Assembly: GCF_002260845.1 (NCBI RefSeq)
Contig: NZ_BEDT01000005.1
Span: 124,001-188,000, forward strand
Length of the DNA: 64,000 nucleotides
Direction: 5' to 3'
Source of the DNA: Pseudolactococcus reticulitermitis
Lineage (GTDB): Bacteria; Bacillota; Bacilli; Lactobacillales; Streptococcaceae
This document shows positions 3,558-23,805 of the stretch, one piece after another. The translations under genes were made by a program, and so were the position numbers. Under the pieces are notes generated by a model. That model did no database searches and was not told the origin of the DNA. It worked only from the letters and a program-made list of their open reading frames with translations. The stretch's first letter is position 1. Every line of letters begins with the position of its first letter.

Positions 3558-3636
3558 CTGTTGTTCTTTCAGCTACGCTGAATCATTTTGATTCGTCTTA
3601 AAAACAATTCAAAATTATATAGAAAGAGTGACGATT

Positions 3637-6600
3637 ATGTCTTATAAAAACAGGTCTAAAATTAGACAAAAATTAGTCTCTATCTTCCTTGGTTTAAGCT
3701 TGGTGTTTAATGTCTTTGCGCCATTAACAGCAGTTTTTGCAGAAGATATTGCACCTCCGACAGTCCCAGTGAGTAGCTGGCACCTCTTGAATTCAAAAAA
3801 TGAAGTGGTTTCTGAAGAAAATCCTGTCAAAGTCGAGGAAGCTTATGCGCTACAAGCAGAAGTTCATTTACAGGCTTTAGAAGGGTTAAAACTCACAGCA
3901 GGTGATTTGTATCAACTTGCTCTGCCTGAAAATTCTGAGATAGGTACTTGGTCAGGTCAACAAGAAACACCAAAAGACTTAGTGAACAAGCTCGGTAAAG
4001 TTGTCGGAAGTTTCACGATTCAAAATCAAGTCATTTTGTTGAGTTTAAATGAAACAGTGACTGGTCTTGATGAAGTTGATGTCGTCATTCAAACTGATGC
4101 CGTTTTAACAACGGATGTTGAAAAAAATCTGACCCAGGCGGTTCAAGTAGGCGATAGTTCACAAAATATTGCTTTTATTGCGGCGACGTCGTACCCAGAA
4201 CCAACGCCAGAACTTAAACCAGCAACCAAAGCCAAACTAATGCCTCGGGCATTATCAATTGATTATTCGAGTCAAGTCGTCGTTAACGATTGGGAAATTT
4301 TAGATAGTTCAGGTATTCCTCTTTCTATAACGAACCAAGGGACAAGAGGTCAAGTCTATCAGCTGAAATTTAACTGGACCTTAACACCATTAAGTGGTAC
4401 TTTGAACGAAGGGGACACATTTTCGTTTAATCGTCCCGTTAGTACACCGGGTGGTAATTGGGGTGCTACGAATTATGCTTGGACGAACTTTACCGATTCT
4501 TTAGGGACAGTTTTAGGTCAATGGCGAATTCAAAGTAATAAAATCGAAGTAGTCATAGGTGTTAACGTGACAGGACAACAGAGTATTTCTGCTGAATTCA
4601 TCTCTGGTGCGAATGCCTTTTCAGCAGCTTGTGCCCCCCAAGGTGGTGACACGATTGTGTCCTTTGGTGGGATAGATAAAGTAATTAATTTCAAGAATAG
4701 TTCATCGTTATCAGCTTTAGGTGCCAGTGATGGAAAATACTTGAGGTCAACTTCAAATACGACGGCAACCTGGAATTTTAGTATTGGTAATAAAGAGTTA
4801 AGGCGATTAGGGGAAAGCTTTGGTACGGCATATGATATTCAAAGCAGTGTTTATATTGAAGATGTTCTCAATGGAATTCCGACTGAGTTTTCATTAGAGA
4901 ATAGGGTATATCTTCCAACTGATTTGTCTACAGGTGTTCTATCTGGTGCAGCTGGTGCTCTTCATACGATACCTACGACTAAAATAACTCAGAACTCAGG
5001 GGAATCTTACGCGGATTTTAAGAATAGGTTAGGTGTTTATCAATACGGTTTTTATAAAGATGCTTTTGACCAATACACTTTAGTAGTTTATCTAGGGGAT
5101 ATGGGAAGTGATGGTATAAGATATTCTGATTTGGATGCCAATTTCTTGAACACAGCAGTTAACAATGCGATTAACAATGGCTCTTATCTTGAGTCAGACC
5201 GCGATACGTTGAAAGATTTCATGACGAAGACCTATGGTAATGAAAATGTCATTGGAGGGAAAGTAGCTTTCTATATGGGGTTTGTTACTGAAACCTATCC
5301 CCAAGTTGCTACAACTACAACCATCAAAAACACCGCTAAAATCACCAAGAGTGGTATTTCAAAGGATTATTCAGCTACTGGGCAACTTCAAGTTCCGTCA
5401 GGTTCAGGAGAGACTATTTCTTCAGGTTCAGTGGGTGTTTATCTAGCTGATACCGACACCAATTTACCACTTGCTGGCACCTTTAAACTCCAAAAACAAG
5501 ACGGTGCTAATTGGGTAGATTATAATGGCAATGGCAGTGGTCCATGGACAACTGATGCTGCTAATTATGGTTTTGTTAATGCGGGTTCAGTGGGCGACGG
5601 TACTTACCGCTTCGTCCAAATTGCTGCCCCAAGTACTGAATATGACTTAGAACATTCACCAGGCTATGTTGCTGGTGTTGGGGTTTTATCGGCTCCATTT
5701 ACTATTACCTCTGAAGATACAGCAGGCAAGACGGTGAATGTCCAGAACACCAAATATAAATTCAATGTCATCTATGCCCCAGGCACACAAGGCGATTTCA
5801 CGGCTAACACGCACACTAGCCGTGTTATTAACAGTATGACACCAGCTTTCTCTGGCGCTATGGGTACGGATGGCATGACACCAAAAGGTAAAACGGGCTA
5901 TACTTTCACAGGTTGGGATCCAGTTGTTACCGATTATGTCACTGAGACTGTGACTTATACTGCTCAGTGGGCACCAATCGTTTATGCCATTAACTATGAA
6001 CCAGACGGTGGTGCAAATCCTATAAGTAATCCAATAAACTATACGTACGGCGTCGGTGTGACCAGCTTTGCGCCTGCGACAGGTAAAATAGGCTATACCT
6101 TTGCAGGTTGGTACGATGTGCCAACAGGTGGAAATCCAGTCACAGAAATCTCAAAAACAGCGACAGGCAATAAAACGCTCTACGCGCGTTGGACAGCTAA
6201 CAAGTATGACATCATCTACCATTTAGCTGGAGGCGACAATGCCAATGCTAACCCTGAAAACTATACTTACGATGTCGGTGTAGCAAGCTTTGAAGCTGCG
6301 ACGAAGACAGGATACCACTTCCTTGGCTGGTATGATGCCGCTGAAGGTGGTAATCTGATTACTAATATCCCATCAACAGCGACAGGCACGAAATACCTTT
6401 ATGCCCATTGGAATTACACCATCACCTATGAACTAGATGGTGGTGTAAATGGGACGAACCCAACCCATTATGAGTTTGGTACAGGTGTCACAAGCTTTGA
6501 AAATGCGACGAAGACAGGTCATACTTTCTTAGGTTGGTATGATAAAGCAAGTGGTGGCAACAAAGTCGCAAGTATTTCAGCGACTGAAAAAGAGGATAAA

Positions 6601-7566
6601 ATCCTCTATGCCCACTGGCGTGTTGATGATTATGCGATTAACTATGAGTTAGATGGCGGTGAAAACGATCCTGCAAATCCAGATCAGTACACTTACGGTA
6701 TTGGTGTCTCTAACCTTGAACCAGCAATGAAAGACGGCTATATCTTCCTCGGCTGGTTTGATGAAAATGACCAAGAAGTGACGGCTATTTCCGATACAGC
6801 GATGGGCACCCAAACGTTGTATGCACATTTCAAAGGAGACCAAGCACGCATTGAAGCGCATTCGATTGAGCGGACGATCAAAGCCAACACGACTTACACT
6901 TGGAATCACACCCATCATGCGCCAGTGCTTTATGATGAAGATGGTGGTGTAGTCGAATACGCAGAGCTTTGGGCGATTATCGACGGTAAAGTTTACAGTG
7001 AGACTGACTTTGAAGAATTGCCGGTAGGTGTCTACAAGGTCACCTTCACGAATAGGAATCCAAACCTGAGATTTAATCGTTATAGCCGTTTATTGAGCGC
7101 ATTGGATAAAGAAGTGACGACAGAAACAACTGTGACGATTCTTGAAGCACCTGAAGTACCAGCACCAGTCACAGTTCGTTATGTAGACCAAAATGGTAAA
7201 GAGATTAAAACTGCAACAGTTTACACGGGTAAAAATGGTGACGTGATTTCAAGCTCTGCGCCAATGATTGACGGGTACGAGTTGATTTCCCTTAGTGATA
7301 AAATCAATGCGGTTATCACCGATCAAGCCCAAACTTTCAGCTTTGTCTATAAACGAACTAATGCTACGCAGCCAGACCAACAAGGCAAAACTGGTCAACA
7401 GTTGCCAGCAACAGGTCAAACCTTACCAACGACAGGTCAACAGTTGCCTAAAACAGGTGACACACAAAATGTGTTTAATCTCATGCTTGGGTTCATTTTA
7501 GTTGCCTTGGTCAGTTTCCTATCTTGGTTAAAACTTGGCAAGAGATTTGCGAAAGAAATAGACTAG
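3637..7566 (+). CDS. Large LPXTG-anchored surface adhesin with Listeria-Bacteroides repeats
   Basis: A 1,309-residue predicted cell-wall protein. The start is the ATG at 3637 behind AGAAAG; the GTG at 3628 lacks a site. A signal peptide with a hydrophobic core (LVSIFLGLSLVFNVFAPL) ends near AVFAED. The N-terminal half (about 40-560) reads as adhesin-type beta-sandwich sequence. A prealbumin-like domain follows (about 600-700), then about five Listeria-Bacteroides repeats (707-1066, each ending in GW...LYAHW-type motifs) and a MucBP-like domain (1176-1240). The tail has three heptad-spaced motifs, LPATG (1256), LPTTG (1263) and LPKTG (1270), then a hydrophobic segment and a basic tail. Sortase would link it to peptidoglycan. 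Ligand unknown; an adhesion role is inferred. Confidence 0.85.
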   Translation: MSYKNRSKIRQKLVSIFLGLSLVFNVFAPLTAVFAEDIAPPTVPVSSWHLLNSKNEVVSEENPVKVEEAYALQAEVHLQALEGLKLTAGDLYQLALPENSEIGTWSGQQETPKDLVNKLGKVVGSFTIQNQVILLSLNETVTGLDEVDVVIQTDAVLTTDVEKNLTQAVQVGDSSQNIAFIAATSYPEPTPELKPATKAKLMPRALSIDYSSQVVVNDWEILDSSGIPLSITNQGTRGQVYQLKFNWTLTPLSGTLNEGDTFSFNRPVSTPGGNWGATNYAWTNFTDSLGTVLGQWRIQSNKIEVVIGVNVTGQQSISAEFISGANAFSAACAPQGGDTIVSFGGIDKVINFKNSSSLSALGASDGKYLRSTSNTTATWNFSIGNKELRRLGESFGTAYDIQSSVYIEDVLNGIPTEFSLENRVYLPTDLSTGVLSGAAGALHTIPTTKITQNSGESYADFKNRLGVYQYGFYKDAFDQYTLVVYLGDMGSDGIRYSDLDANFLNTAVNNAINNGSYLESDRDTLKDFMTKTYGNENVIGGKVAFYMGFVTETYPQVATTTTIKNTAKITKSGISKDYSATGQLQVPSGSGETISSGSVGVYLADTDTNLPLAGTFKLQKQDGANWVDYNGNGSGPWTTDAANYGFVNAGSVGDGTYRFVQIAAPSTEYDLEHSPGYVAGVGVLSAPFTITSEDTAGKTVNVQNTKYKFNVIYAPGTQGDFTANTHTSRVINSMTPAFSGAMGTDGMTPKGKTGYTFTGWDPVVTDYVTETVTYTAQWAPIVYAINYEPDGGANPISNPINYTYGVGVTSFAPATGKIGYTFAGWYDVPTGGNPVTEISKTATGNKTLYARWTANKYDIIYHLAGGDNANANPENYTYDVGVASFEAATKTGYHFLGWYDAAEGGNLITNIPSTATGTKYLYAHWNYTITYELDGGVNGTNPTHYEFGTGVTSFENATKTGHTFLGWYDKASGGNKVASISATEKEDKILYAHWRVDDYAINYELDGGENDPANPDQYTYGIGVSNLEPAMKDGYIFLGWFDENDQEVTAISDTAMGTQTLYAHFKGDQARIEAHSIERTIKANTTYTWNHTHHAPVLYDEDGGVVEYAELWAIIDGKVYSETDFEELPVGVYKVTFTNRNPNLRFNRYSRLLSALDKEVTTETTVTILEAPEVPAPVTVRYVDQNGKEIKTATVYTGKNGDVISSSAPMIDGYELISLSDKINAVITDQAQTFSFVYKRTNATQPDQQGKTGQQLPATGQTLPTTGQQLPKTGDTQNVFNLMLGFILVALVSFLSWLKLGKRFAKEID

Positions 7567-7823: not shown

Positions 7824-9332
<1,509 letters not shown>

Positions 9333-10475: not shown

Positions 10476-10555
10476 TAGATGTTATCCATGGTATATTTTG
10501 GACACTCATGCAAACTTTTGGTCATTCGTGGTATATTTTGGGTCGTTTATGACAT
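10476..10555 (+). repeat. Four 20-bp direct repeats upstream of the peptide operon
   Basis: Three close copies start at 10496, 10516 and 10536, each TTTTGG followed by a CAYTCRTG-like core. A diverged fourth at 10476 shares the GGTATA end with copy 2. Exact 20-bp spacing, about two helical turns, upstream of a weak promoter is what is seen at activator sites such as LytTR response regulators. The core is not a clean match to a known LytTR box, so the binding protein is unknown. Confidence 0.65.
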
Positions 10556-10695
10556 CTGGAAATTTTTTTAAAAAATTTGATGTATACTATAAGTAGTGAT
10601 AACCATCATGTAGGATAGATTTAGAATTCTAAATTTGATAAGCGCTTTTTAGGTGACAGAAAACAGAAGATTGAAAATTCCGAACCCTTAAAATA

Positions 10696-10794: not shown

Positions 10795-11064
10795 ATGTAT
10801 TTTGTAACAGAAATCGATAGTGATTTGTATCTAGGACGTGAACTACTTTTTTCAAAAGAAAAACAAGTTTACTTTGAAAGAGTTGAAGCTAAACTCAATC
10901 AAGAGTTTACTCATGTAAAGGCAGTAAAGCTGTCTGAATTGTATGAAGATTTGAAAGATGAAAACACTACTGAGAAAATTATCCTTTCAAAATATGCAAA
11001 AGCTTATCAACATGCTATTCAAACAAGATATCCCAACGCGGATGTAAAAAATTATGAGGAGTGA
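10795..11064 (+). CDS. Unknown 89-residue protein, first gene of the peptide operon
   Basis: The start ATG follows TAGGAGACATGCC. The product is a soluble, charged protein with no signal peptide or membrane segment, probably largely helical (for example YFERVEAKLNQEF and EKIILSKYAKAYQHAI). No family is recognised. Its stop is 4 bp before the peptide ATG, and the peptide's ribosome site lies inside its last codons, so the two are translationally coupled. It could be an immunity protein, a leader-binding protein or a chaperone for the peptide; nothing in the sequence decides between these. Confidence 0.7.
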   Translation: MYFVTEIDSDLYLGRELLFSKEKQVYFERVEAKLNQEFTHVKAVKLSELYEDLKDENTTEKIILSKYAKAYQHAIQTRYPNADVKNYEE

Positions 11065-11068
11065 ACCT

Positions 11069-11221
11069 ATGGACAAAATTTTTGCACAATATGAAGAACT
11101 GAACGATGCTGAACTTTCTGCTGTAAAAGGTGGCGGCTATCGCTATGATGCAGTTGGTCGAATTTTAGCACCGTTGGTCAACTTTGCAGGTCAAGTGTTT
11201 AACGCTGCAACAGGAAATTAA
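11069..11221 (+). CDS. Double-glycine leader peptide (bacteriocin or pheromone precursor)
   Basis: A 50-residue ORF behind AGGAG with 7-nt spacing. Residues 1-22 form a typical double-glycine leader ending LNDAELSAVKGG, the site cut by C39-peptidase ABC exporters. The remaining 28 residues are amphipathic and Gly/Ala-rich, begin GYRYD and end in NAATGN. They have no Cys or Ser, one Thr (Thr48), two Tyr and one Pro. The class is either an unmodified class II bacteriocin, a signalling peptide, or a substrate of the glycosyltransferase encoded next. No exporter gene is adjacent. Confidence 0.85.
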   Translation: MDKIFAQYEELNDAELSAVKGGGYRYDAVGRILAPLVNFAGQVFNAATGN

Positions 11222-11271: not shown

Positions 11272-12792
11272 ATGTATAAAAATTGGTTAACTGAAGATAT
11301 TGAATCTATGGCATCATCTATCAATTATTTAGAGATACTAGAAATTGCTAAAAAAATTGACTTGAAAAATGCTTTTAAAGAGAGTTATGAAACACTCTCA
11401 AAGAGAGAATATTTTGAGAAGTTAAATTTAAGATATCAAGATTTTTTAGCAAATAATACAATCGGAATTGCAATGCTTGTTAAAAATCAGGAAAAGCGAA
11501 TATATTCTGCTATATCCAATCTTTTAGAGTTGTGTGATGAGTTTGTCATTGTTGACACTGGTTCAACAGATAAAACAGTTGAGCAAATCAAGAAAATAGA
11601 ATCAGATAAATTGCAGCTTTTTTCAAAAGAGTGGGTTGAAGATTTTTCGGTGATGAGAAATTTTGTTATTTCTAAGGTAAAAACTGACTGGATTTTTTTT
11701 GTAGATTCTGATGAAATATTGTTTGAAAATGTTGATAAAAATAGATTAAGAAATACAGCTGCTTTACTAGCGTCTCTCAGTGATGAAAGTGTTGCAATTC
11801 AGTTTAAAATAAAAAGACCAAATCAAAGTAGCTTTACACTTGCAGAAAGAGGGCTTCGAAAAGGCACAACGCATTATGTTAATAAAATCCATGAGGAGTT
11901 GTATGATACTAAAATAATGAAAGTTAGAATTGACTTTCTTCTTGAAAATCAAGGTGCGCTCACTGAAGAAATCGAAAAATTTAATAAAACTGAACGTTAC
12001 AATAACTTAGTTAATGAAGAACTAGAGAAATCCACTAGTAATATAAAGATGTTGCTAAATTTTCCTTTTCCTCAGGGAGATGAAATCGAGAGTGAGCGAT
12101 ATTTTAAACTTGTAAATCGCGTCATATTAAAAAAAGAAAAGCAAGGTTGGAAAAAACATAATTTTCAGTTAACTGATGATTTTCATACACTGACTCAGAA
12201 ATATATCATGCTGCTTTTAAGTCTTGGTCGAATAGATGAACTGATTGATAAAACAGCGATATTATTGAGGTTATTTTCTGATAATTATTTCATGCTTTCG
12301 ATGAATAATTTAGGGAAAATTTTAAAGCAACATCAAAAGCAACAAAAGCAATTTGAACTATTTTTAGAACAGTATGCTGAGATTAACAACGAAACATCCT
12401 TTGAAACAACGCTGATGTCTAAAGACTATGCGTCTGCCATCACGGTTAAATATTTGTTTAGCTTAGGCGATTATAAAAATGCCGCTCAGTTATCTTTAGA
12501 AATAACGGATCAAGCGGCATTGGAATTGATTCAAAACGAGTCTAAATTTCTTAAAATGATTGATTTAAGTGATGAAGAATTATGTAAAATAAAAGGGGGC
12601 AATATTTCAAAAAAAATAAAACTGGAGCGCCAAGCGTTGAATCTCACCCAAGAGTGTCTAGCTCAAAAATTATTTGTTTCGCCACCTGTCATAGCAAATT
12701 GGGAGCATGAACGAAGTTATCCTAATATTCAACAAATTTTAGCACTGTCAGAATGTTTTGGCAAATCAACAGATTATCTGTTAAAGGATTGA
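11272..12792 (+). CDS. SunS-like family 2 glycosyltransferase fused to a leader-like motif and an XRE helix-turn-helix
   Basis: A 506-residue protein. Residues 62-150 are a GT-A/GT2 domain: AMLVKN (68-72), VDTGSTD (94-100), EDFSVMRN and the metal-binding DSDE (145-148), closest by eye to SunS-type peptide glycosyltransferases. A helical region follows to about 430. Residues 432-443 read LSDEELCKIKGG, a double-glycine leader motif very like the one ending the upstream peptide's leader. Residues 446-504 are an XRE-type helix-turn-helix (LNLTQECLAQKLFVSPPVIANWEHERSYPN). No frameshift is visible; one continuous ORF. It probably glycosylates the upstream peptide; the tail suggests built-in regulation. 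The combination is not one I recognise. Confidence 0.75.
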   Translation: MYKNWLTEDIESMASSINYLEILEIAKKIDLKNAFKESYETLSKREYFEKLNLRYQDFLANNTIGIAMLVKNQEKRIYSAISNLLELCDEFVIVDTGSTDKTVEQIKKIESDKLQLFSKEWVEDFSVMRNFVISKVKTDWIFFVDSDEILFENVDKNRLRNTAALLASLSDESVAIQFKIKRPNQSSFTLAERGLRKGTTHYVNKIHEELYDTKIMKVRIDFLLENQGALTEEIEKFNKTERYNNLVNEELEKSTSNIKMLLNFPFPQGDEIESERYFKLVNRVILKKEKQGWKKHNFQLTDDFHTLTQKYIMLLLSLGRIDELIDKTAILLRLFSDNYFMLSMNNLGKILKQHQKQQKQFELFLEQYAEINNETSFETTLMSKDYASAITVKYLFSLGDYKNAAQLSLEITDQAALELIQNESKFLKMIDLSDEELCKIKGGNISKKIKLERQALNLTQECLAQKLFVSPPVIANWEHERSYPNIQQILALSECFGKSTDYLLKD

Positions 12793-12853
12793 GATATCAA
12801 TTTTAAATGATATAAATAGTTGTTTAGTATTTGCCAATAAATTGCTTAGTTGT

Positions 12854-12876
12854 ATACCCTTTTGGGTATTTTTTTT
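12854..12876 (+). terminator. Intrinsic terminator of the peptide/glycosyltransferase operon
   Basis: ATACCC (12854-12859), a TTTT loop, GGGTAT (12864-12869), then a run of eight T. Confidence 0.85.
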
Positions 12877-12879
12877 GAA

Positions 12880-13026
12880 GTGGCGCTCGATAAGACAAAG
12901 TTGACAAGCAGTGAGGAAACAATTTTAGCCAAAGTTGCTATGCTGACAGTTGCCAGCGTTGTTTACGAAAAGGAAAATGATATGGCATGGTTGTTGGAAC
13001 AACTGAATTTTAGGAAAGAAAAGTAA
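12880..13026 (+). pseudogene. Fragment of a gene end (about 48 codons, no start signals)
   Basis: An open frame runs to a TAA at 13024-13026 and reads like a real protein end (ETILAKVAMLTVASVVYEKE...). There is no ribosome site at the only early start (GTG, 12880), and the frame begins in the terminator of the previous operon. It is best read as a remnant left by a deletion or insertion at the edge of the accessory island. Parent family not recognised. Confidence 0.35.
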
Positions 13027-21747: not shown

Positions 21748-23805
21748 ATGATGAAACAGACGCACTTTAGAAATTTGAAATCAGGGAAACACTGGTTATT
21801 TGCAGCATCACTCTTAGCGGTTCTTACGGGCAGTGCTTTGCAGACACCCGTATATGCAGCTGAAACGACAGCCACAACGACGCAAAGCGCAGCCGAATCA
21901 ACCTTGCCTGTTCACCATGTTGATTATGATTCACTGACAGCTGCTGAAAAGGCGGCGATTGTCAAAACAGTGCCGACCGCTAAAAAGTCAGCAGACAAGG
22001 GGCATTATAAACTCGTCTATCAAAAAATAGGCGGCCAGTTGCCAACCACTTACAATACGACACCCATCACGACAGGAAATACCGCAAACACGACAAAATT
22101 ACCGACAACTGGTGAAAAGAGTCAAGCACTTGGTTTGTATGCGGGTGTCGGCTTAACGCTTGCTGTTCTTGGATTGGCAGCCGCTAGTAAGAGTAAAAAA
22201 CGCACGCAAATTTTGATGCTAGTTGCCTTAATTTCGGCTTCTGGGACAGCTAGTGTGACCGCTTATGCGGCGACTGAAATTGCACCACGTGCGACAGTTG
22301 TGCTTGGTGAACAAGTGAAGGTACCTGAAATCGCAGGTTATACTTATGTTGGACATCTTTATGTGGCTGATGAGGCAAAACTACCTGGAACAGGTGATAA
22401 TGACAGCAAGGGCGATAAAGGAGCCCAAGGTGACAAGGGAGCTCAAGGTGACAAGGGCGACAAAGGTGAACAAGGCGACAAAGGTGAGCCTGGAGGACCA
22501 AGTGTTACTGATAACTACACGATTACCTACTATGTAGATGGTCAACTCGTCACAACTCTCGATCCTGATGGCTATCGTTCAGGCGTTAAAACAGTTCACT
22601 TACCAACGCCAAAATTAGCCGAAACGCTGGCCTTCTCAGGTTGGTATGACAATGCAAAATGCACAGGAACACCGATCACAACGATCGGAAAAACTGAAAC
22701 AGGCGACAAAGTCTTTTATGGCAAAACAAGTGTCGCAAAATACACAGTTACCTTTGATACAAAGGGAGGGACAGCTATCGCGCCACAGCTCATCGGTCTT
22801 GCGCAAACGGCGACCAAACCTCTAGATCCTAAGAAAAACGATATGATTAAAAATGTCGTTAAAAAAGGTGTTGCACCAGATAGTGATTTTGCGCTAGAAG
22901 GTTGGTATACTGATGCTGCCTGCACCAACAAATTTGATTTTAAGACCATCATCACAAGTGACCTGACACTCCATGCAAAATGGCAGCTACTGATAACTGA
23001 TGCAGGTGAGAACAATCTAATAGGTGACCGATTCGCTAATCGCCTATTGGGAGACAGAGGGGATACCGTTTGGTTGGCAAATGCTTGGTGGCGAATTGTT
23101 AATGCAGATATCGATAGTATTGTTGTAGGAAAACAAGCCTTGCTCGTAAAAGAGGAGGCCTTAACCAATAAAGAATTAGGCATTTTTGATACCTACACCG
23201 AGTTCCGACAAAATGAAGCCGGTAGGGTTTCTTTTCATGAGGTAACAGAACCGTATACTGGACACTCGAGTACTAATTACTTTATAAATGACACTTCAAC
23301 GGGTTATGAGGACTCCCTCCTAAAACAAAAGATTGATGCCTACTACACCAACACAATTGCTAATTCGGAACAGGAAGCTTTGGTCTTGCCTGTCAGTCTG
23401 AATAACCCAACCTTCTCGCAATGGCAGACCAAACAGGCAGATCTTCTTTGGAGCCGGTATGGAGAGGTTCTACCTAGTGGTACCTATGATGAGTATCAAT
23501 ACAGTTTATCGAATCAAGTTGATGTCATGTGGGATACTAGTGCGCCAACGACACTTGGCGGGCAAAAGCTTGCTTTTGCCTTAGGGATGGGTGATCTTAG
23601 GCGCTATCAGTTAGAAGAGTATAATTTATATCCCGTCCTTTCTATTTTAGGCGGCTATCTTGATGAGACAAATGGTGGTTGGTCACGTTCTCCATATATG
23701 ACTGATTATCATGGCGCTACCTTCTCATACGATGGGGTACTTTCCTATTATGAGTTAGATAGTCCCAACTATGTTCGTCCGGCAATCGTTGTCCAAATTG
23801 ACTAA
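21748..23805 (+). CDS. Surface protein with an internal LPXTG sorting signal, collagen-like repeats and a C-terminal domain
   Basis: A 685-residue protein; the ATG at 21748 or 21751 follows AGGGGAAAT. A signal peptide (LFAASLLAVLTGSAL...VYAA) opens it. LPTTG at residue 118 is followed by a hydrophobic stretch and SKSKKR, a complete sorting signal, yet the protein continues. A second hydrophobic segment (ILMLVALISASGTASVTAYAA, about 154-175) follows, then LPGTG (212), about nine Gly-X-Y triplets (222-251, GDKGAQ/GEQ), two repeats of the Listeria-Bacteroides type, and a 250-residue C-terminal domain beginning AWWRIVN that recalls DUF6273. It could be a fusion of two exported proteins or a protein split by sortase. 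Role unknown. Confidence 0.75.
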   Translation: MMKQTHFRNLKSGKHWLFAASLLAVLTGSALQTPVYAAETTATTTQSAAESTLPVHHVDYDSLTAAEKAAIVKTVPTAKKSADKGHYKLVYQKIGGQLPTTYNTTPITTGNTANTTKLPTTGEKSQALGLYAGVGLTLAVLGLAAASKSKKRTQILMLVALISASGTASVTAYAATEIAPRATVVLGEQVKVPEIAGYTYVGHLYVADEAKLPGTGDNDSKGDKGAQGDKGAQGDKGDKGEQGDKGEPGGPSVTDNYTITYYVDGQLVTTLDPDGYRSGVKTVHLPTPKLAETLAFSGWYDNAKCTGTPITTIGKTETGDKVFYGKTSVAKYTVTFDTKGGTAIAPQLIGLAQTATKPLDPKKNDMIKNVVKKGVAPDSDFALEGWYTDAACTNKFDFKTIITSDLTLHAKWQLLITDAGENNLIGDRFANRLLGDRGDTVWLANAWWRIVNADIDSIVVGKQALLVKEEALTNKELGIFDTYTEFRQNEAGRVSFHEVTEPYTGHSSTNYFINDTSTGYEDSLLKQKIDAYYTNTIANSEQEALVLPVSLNNPTFSQWQTKQADLLWSRYGEVLPSGTYDEYQYSLSNQVDVMWDTSAPTTLGGQKLAFALGMGDLRRYQLEEYNLYPVLSILGGYLDETNGGWSRSPYMTDYHGATFSYDGVLSYYELDSPNYVRPAIVVQID

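Follow-up and report, generated by a model that had tools for sequence, protein, structure and literature searches.

A double-glycine-leader-like element joined to a helix-turn-helix domain in lactococcal peptide loci and, in two genomes, to a SunS-like glycosyltransferase

Introduction

Loci for bacteriocins and quorum sensing have to keep peptide synthesis in step with export capacity, and we know of no answer to the question of how a cell senses its peptide exporter. Export-coupled regulators are known from other secretion systems, where FlgM and ExsE couple transcription to the state of the secretion machine. Precursors of bacteriocins and pheromones that are processed by C39 peptidases carry leaders with the hallmarks L...(E/D)L..(I/V).GG, and the Gly-Gly of C39 substrates is a hallmark of cutting rather than docking. 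The glycocin glycosyltransferases SunS and ThuS combine a GT2 domain with a helical C-terminal part and are found beside a double-glycine peptide. BlpS of Streptococcus gallolyticus is a small additional DNA-binding protein in a quorum-sensing bacteriocin locus; in the accessible portion of its description, it consists of a LytTR domain alone and competes with BlpR at the BlpR site (PMC8545106). GmaR of Listeria joins a GT2 part to a C-terminal part that acts in transcription, an antirepressor domain that binds the repressor MogR, as given in the available part of the account (PMC9638930).

Titles and abstract openings of mainly open-access papers, preprints excepted, yielded no description of a DNA-binding domain under a double-glycine leader. 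The sources consulted more closely were PMC10986499, PMC11798529, PMC9638930, PMC2766830, PMC8545106 and PMC5311971. Three leads from the literature came to nothing: HetC as a precedent, its substrate being unknown; the Neisseria nap island; and the microcin PDI study, in which the XRE protein served just as a gel-shift control. Here we describe what appears to be an exporter tag on small DNA-binding proteins of Lactococcus-type bacteria, which suggests that the exporter may help to control gene switching.

A glycosyltransferase joined to a leader-like element and a helix-turn-helix

We analysed a stretch of 64,000 nucleotides from Pseudolactococcus reticulitermitis (the window; its genome is G000). 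The features on which the analysis turns are the following.

10482..10561, plus strand: about four 20-bp direct repeats, most distinct at 10482 and 10522 (spacing 40 bp); probable sites of a LytTR regulator
10795..11064, plus strand: 89-aa protein with no credible family match, kept in Lactococcus laudensis
11069..11221, plus strand: 50-aa double-glycine peptide with its leader at 11069-11134 and a Cys-free core, GYRYDAVGRILAPLVNFAGQVFNAATGN; kept in L. laudensis
11272..12792, plus strand: fusion open reading frame of 506 aa, glycosyltransferase plus GG-HTH module, from Pfam and motif positions
11272..12531, plus strand: SunS/ThuS-like glycosyltransferase part, residues 1-420, from TIGR04195, Foldseek and the ends of related glycosyltransferases
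12532..12600, plus strand: leader-like junction, residues 421-443, ending in LSDEELCKIKGG, from alignments and of low confidence in the structure model
12601..12789, plus strand: Cro/C1-type helix-turn-helix (HTH), residues 444-506, from HTH_3, PDB matches and pLDDT

A preliminary description of this DNA had claimed a single 506-codon frame holding glycosyltransferase motifs, a leader-like motif and an XRE HTH. The frame at 11272-12792 is indeed unbroken, with VDTGSTD at residues 94-100, DSDE at 145-148 and LSDEELCKIKGG at 432-443 (nt 12565-12600), and the HTH is borne out by HTH_3 at 449-503, above its Pfam cut-off (E 3e-9, 37.2 bits against 23). Glycos_transf_2 also exceeds its Pfam cut-off, at 67-153 (E 1.7e-13). 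The NCBIfam SunS model TIGR04195 aligns with residues 36-420 at 64.4 bits, far short of its equivalog cut-off of 350, and ranks 1-6 of a Foldseek search with the glycosyltransferase model are ThuS (7msk) and SunS (7msn, 7msp); by Foldseek and Pfam the protein has a GT2 fold with SunS/ThuS architecture. The top PDB sequence match of the whole frame is a GmaR chain (PDB 22ao), and the P22 C2 repressor is among the matches for the HTH part. The structure models, which rest on shallow alignments (12 rows for the fusion, 8 for a separate protein encoded at G000:C7), place the GG in an unstructured stretch ahead of a confident HTH in both proteins. In the fusion, mean pLDDT is 74.8, with 89-94 in HTH residues 451-480 and 49-59 in junction residues 421-440; in the separate protein a short leader helix (14-19) is followed by GG in a coil and an HTH mostly above 90. 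The module sits fused at the natural C-terminus of a predicted SunS-like peptide glycosyltransferase in the window and in L. laudensis.

A scan of species-representative genomes found a sole full-length homologue, in L. laudensis DSM 28961 (G005; locus L022, contig G005:C1), 90% identical over 506 residues. It keeps the glycosyltransferase, the motif, the HTH, the adjacent peptide, the 89-aa neighbour and the flanking genes. The preliminary description had asked whether glycosyltransferase, GG motif and HTH stay together beside double-glycine peptides, and had named homologues with the domains but without the LxxEL...GG pattern as a refutation; in this one homologue they do stay together, and the motif is kept as LSDEELCKVKGG. 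No plasmid or phage record searched covers 80% of the fusion query. Between the two species dN/dS is 0.137 over residues 61-300 and 0.132 overall, and the values of 0.068 (421-443) and 0.060 (444-506), from short stretches with 3 and 2 non-synonymous differences, indicate that the C-terminus is not decaying and nothing beyond that. We considered an internal start that would give an HTH apart from the glycosyltransferase and rejected it: at the position of Met429 in the window protein L. laudensis has Ile, which makes a separate internal product conserved in both species unlikely.

The 50-aa peptide scores 16.0 bits with TIGR01847 (cut-off 15.7) and falls below the cut-off of Bacteriocin_IIc. 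Its core GYRYDAVGRILAPLVNFAGQVFNAATGN lacks the Cys acceptor expected of a SunS/ThuS peptide, so sublancin-type S-glycosylation is not expected. As a lead only, the single Thr of this core, in AATGN, recalls the S-G/S-A stretches of some double-glycine peptides near other SunS-like glycosyltransferases. Homology of the 89-aa protein to the 94- and 96-aa proteins of locus L024 was discarded, there being no BLASTP hit and just a loose alignment. Behind the fusion gene a short open reading frame with a TTG start (12850-13026, plus strand) has a similar stretch (VASIVYEKENYMAWLMEQLNF) equally placed in L. laudensis; our guess is that it is possibly the remnant of an immunity-type gene. Elsewhere in the window, 3628-7566 and 21748-23805 (both plus strand) encode large surface-type proteins with, by eye, repeats such as GYTFAGWYD and an LPxTG-like motif.

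Leader and domain form a module

The preliminary description had likened LSDEELCKIKGG to LNDAELSAVKGG, the end of the adjacent peptide's leader, and the two are identical at 7 of 12 positions. Of the window's 70 non-overlapping frames, two contain the pattern [LIVM]x3[EDQ][LIVM]x2[LIVM]xGG, the fusion and this peptide, and the likeness is more than chance. The motif is not a property of the glycosyltransferase, as four intact SunS-like relatives, when aligned, end near residue 415-430 of the fusion frame without it. What stands of the leader interpretation is a double-glycine-leader-like element, kept in the homologue and in six separate genes; its tie to the glycosyltransferase falls, as the element accompanies the HTH. 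The alternative role that had been offered for it, to keep the enzyme docked at the exporter, therefore cannot be general.

The C-terminal ~85 residues of the fusion are, as judged from alignments, a clade-specific module in which a putative double-glycine leader is directly joined to a Cro/C1 HTH (GG-HTH). Eight intact modules lie in five lactococcal genomes (alignment A2). Two are fused (window and L. laudensis) and six are separate genes, at G000:C7, G005:C68, G017:C85 and G051:C7 and twice in G010. The copy at L013, found by tblastn, is a small protein encoded on its own that aligns with residues 425-501 through both leader and HTH; that at L024 came from a frame scan of fetched loci. Profile A1, built from these two and the two fusions, was run on 335 family genomes with at most 15 candidates scored per genome, and its top non-seed matches, G005:C68, G000:C7 and two G010 loci (one of them lower down), are leader-plus-HTH genes. 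Separate modules are 27-39% identical to that of the window. At L065 and L031, HTH_3 scores 46.2 and 56.4 bits (cut-off 23), and neither protein has a LytTR hit.

Wider searches gave no further leader-bearing copy among the matches listed, whether with profile A3 in a 59-genome family sample, in 295 order genomes (up to 22 candidates scored per genome) and in 398 phylum genomes (up to 16), or, outside G000, with profile A2 in 395 order genomes (up to 13); the order, phylum and family sets overlap. Since candidates per genome were limited and the listed matches alone were considered, diverged GG-HTH proteins may be missed, and among the matches listed the module appears in three lactococcal genera only. 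None of 20 further XRE matches that we fetched, the majority of which extend into the leader region, has a leader, and the 80 viral-contig loci kept of 121 contain no GG-HTH. On plasmids, searched by tblastn (best 40 of 1161 and best 30 of 267 records), the leader-extended matches H52, H102 and H107 turned out to be ordinary XRE proteins whose alignment ran on beyond the start. A decayed copy of such a locus is seen in L136 (G008:C3:20000-36000), where a frame-broken GG-HTH and remnants of a C39 exporter (~8400-9000, minus strand) lie behind an intact box array.

When an HTH-only model was used to mark the start of the domain, GG directly preceded it in 8 of the 81 rows that the fetched loci gave, exactly the eight modules, and in none of the 73 other rows, in a set that is enriched because the modules came from leader-containing searches and the model was built from modules, and that includes several second stretches of proteins already counted. 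Viral contigs provide a cleaner control, albeit one also fetched by HTH similarity, and GG directly precedes the HTH in 0 of their 96 rows. Within three residues of the HTH, GG occurs in 6 more locus rows and 9 more viral rows, in many cases before the start Met. It lies at the boundary in three of the 20 extra XRE rows (G045, G057 and G043), there directly ahead of a start Met and lacking Ile/Val at -4; GG at this place can thus arise by chance and proves nothing by itself.

The leader hallmarks themselves are retained. Leu, Gly and Gly are invariant over the eight modules, and no gap falls across the GG/HTH junction (A3 alignment). Six modules, the window's included, match the leader pattern given above; at L064 and L065 the acidic place is taken by Ala. 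The bacteriocin_sig model (TIGR01847, cut-off 15.7), built without knowledge of the HTH, scores 22.0 bits at L024, 15.0 at L063 and 12.4 at L064, which puts one of the seven modules tested over the cut-off, and it has no listed match in four of the seven, including the window's. Between the orthologues G000:C7 and G005:C68 the leader has diverged (dN 0.366, dS saturated) yet L, L, I, G and G are kept; dN of the HTH is 0.043.

Peptide and exporter genes around the modules

A motif scan places a double-glycine peptide gene within 2 kb of seven of the eight modules (the exception is L063), and three of the six separate GG-HTH genes lie 12, 26 and 34 bp from genes of a C39-exporter operon. In L024 the order is a C39 ABC exporter (716 aa), HlyD, GG-HTH after 12 bp and another double-glycine peptide, with a SunS-like glycosyltransferase and three more such peptides upstream on the opposite strand. 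GG-HTH lies 26 and 34 bp upstream of the C39 exporter gene in L063 and L065, and in L031, L064 and L062 the modules adjoin one or two double-glycine peptides. By eye, ribosome-binding-like sequences precede the modules of L031, L063 and L024. Two small proteins of ~62 and ~100 aa recur between the double-glycine peptides and GG-HTH in L031 and L064 (G000 and G010).

Both C39 exporter genes that adjoin modules of G005 and G010 are broken. At L063 the exporter falls into frames of 601 and 110 aa; at L065 its frame stops at 570 aa, and the frame after it holds the end of an HlyD-like protein. A C39-ABC exporter is encoded in G000, G005, G010 and G017. G051, a draft genome, has GG-HTH and a double-glycine peptide, yet the one protein in it that matches C39 begins with a signal-like stretch and lacks the ABC part; G006 has the same exporter type and a box, with no GG-HTH detected. 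A C39 match is present in nine of 12 genomes of the genus. G000 has exactly one, an intact exporter open over 714 aa on contig C3, which also encodes HlyD, a GHKL kinase and a LytTR response regulator. With this single intact exporter on contig C3, action in trans is possible.

Near this exporter and a double-glycine peptide, L025 (G000:C3:45000-62000) holds a second SunS-like glycosyltransferase with one in-frame TGA (7935-9155, minus strand). In L026 (G034:C149), at least five double-glycine peptide frames surround one SunS-like glycosyltransferase within 7.2 kb.

Upstream repeats

The preliminary description had put forward 10476-10560 as a stretch to test for binding by the fusion's own HTH. 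The boxes there have relatives at the C3 exporter and at a peptide/glycosyltransferase operon, which fits a quorum-sensing LytTR regulator better. Searched over the whole G000 genome with up to three mismatches, YCATTCRTGGYATATTTTSG gave 11 matches against none for the reversed pattern, although this 20-bp pattern was written from arrays already seen and an earlier, shorter one had given 7 against 3 in the control. Six of the 11 were placed: two at the fusion operon, one at the C7 GG-HTH, one at the C3 exporter and two in an array at C5:46534. A repeat array lies upstream of all six modules of the window's genus and of the G008 remnant, and a weaker one precedes the exporter gene and the peptide/glycosyltransferase operon on G000 contig C3; locus scans of L024 and L062 found none. 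We saw no palindrome common to all modules in the promoter alignment, inspected by eye. For comparison, the LytTR regulator SilA acts on a pair of 10-bp direct repeats separated by 11 bp, as reported in the accessible part of PMC2766830. Given the LytTR regulator near the exporter, we take the array to be its site and the modules to be candidate members of its regulon; the repeats at 10482-10561 are more likely LytTR-regulator sites than an operator of the HTH itself. The C5 array (L133, G000:C5:40000-54000; 6535-6600, plus strand) has two clear boxes at a spacing of 40 bp, is followed by no recognised gene for a peptide or regulator, and is possibly the promoter of a lost peptide gene.

Discussion

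The motif stays with the HTH, and three separate genes lie beside C39-exporter genes; the natural reading is that a C39 peptidase would recognise the leader, which would most economically account for a GG that never varies and always lies equally far from the first helix of the HTH. From this we infer a mode of action, extending to cleavage, the DNA target, the sign of regulation and the fate of the HTH. A C39 peptidase would bind the leader and perhaps cut it after Gly-Gly, as for peptides, tying the regulator to export. The cut would part the HTH from its leader (in the fusion, from the enzyme), freeing it or sending it out, and every form would yield the same product, an HTH whose first helix is preceded by very few residues. 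Peptide precursors would compete for the same peptidase, so that the amount of intact regulator would report a busy or absent exporter, and that level would adjust expression of the peptide regulon. We regard this explanation as a whole, a leader-tagged HTH module through which C39 cutting couples the peptide regulon to the state of the exporter, as evenly poised between right and wrong. Against it stand G051, whose draft genome has GG-HTH without a C39-ABC exporter, and the ~430 residues that precede the leader in the fusion, which a C39 peptidase may not accept. The broken exporters of G005 and G010, the exporter of G006 in a genome with no GG-HTH detected, the single bacteriocin_sig score over the cut-off and the three extra XRE rows with GG at the boundary count against it too. 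The broader proposal that Cro/C1 domains under a double-glycine leader make up an undescribed class switched by C39 proteolysis or export, one branch of it fused to a peptide-glycosylating enzyme, falls just short of an even chance in our estimation.

One special case of C39-coupled regulation takes the HTH as true cargo, cut and expelled, so that an active exporter would drain the repressor, much as the export-coupled anti-regulators FlgM and ExsE behave in other secretion systems. The cargo behind the leader is small (~62 residues) and its gene adjoins exporter genes at three of the six separate loci; folded HTH domains are nonetheless an unusual cargo, and we think this version unlikely. 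Alternatively the leader might act uncut as an anchor or competitor that keeps the HTH or the enzyme bound to the peptidase domain, away from DNA, or throttles export. That would be improbable given an invariant Gly-Gly, which marks cutting rather than docking, even if the leader hallmarks are kept and peptidase domains are needed for substrate contact with or without cutting, according to the available part of PMC10986499. It is also conceivable that leader ends are recombination points of peptide cassettes, and that an HTH once landed behind a leader that has had no role since. The loci are fluid and partly decayed, as the G008 remnant and the broken exporters attest, and the module is confined to three lactococcal genera among the matches listed; the hallmarks, however, persist among modules only 27-39% identical to the window's and are kept where the remaining leader has diverged (G000:C7/G005:C68), which makes such a relic quite improbable. 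That the motif arose by chance at the end of a glycosyltransferase is scarcely credible: it is short and its loose form appears in 246 of 200,000 shuffles of the fusion protein, but six separate leader-plus-HTH genes share an identical boundary at which none of the 96 viral rows has GG.

If the preferred reading of C39 recognition and cutting holds, a regulator under the tag that the exporter itself recognises would sense the exporter directly, and modification, export and transcription would be read out through one peptide tag. The leader tag is also a handle with which to search for other leader-tagged intracellular proteins, easily overlooked as odd fusions.

The arrangement differs from each of the systems it resembles. 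FlgM and ExsE share with the proposed role of GG-HTH a coupling of transcription to a secretion machine, but belong to other secretion systems and have no C39 leader; for GG-HTH, export is a proposal. BlpS is, like GG-HTH, a small DNA-binding protein in a peptide locus, but the proteins of L065 and L031 are HTH_3 proteins rather than a LytTR domain alone, and the accessible part of PMC8545106 mentions neither HTH_3 nor a leader for BlpS. GmaR resembles the fusion in its two-part layout, whereas its C-terminal domain is not described as DNA-binding or leader-bearing in the available part of PMC9638930. The window shares with SunS and ThuS a GT2 domain, a helical C-terminal part and a neighbouring double-glycine peptide, and departs from them in its model score (64.4 against 350 bits), in a peptide core without Cys and in the additional C-terminal GG-HTH. 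With C39-processed precursors GG-HTH has in common the leader hallmarks, a place in double-glycine-peptide loci and, in part, adjacent C39 exporters; unlike them, it carries a folded Cro/C1 HTH after the GG, and two copies have the leader inside a longer protein, following a glycosyltransferase.
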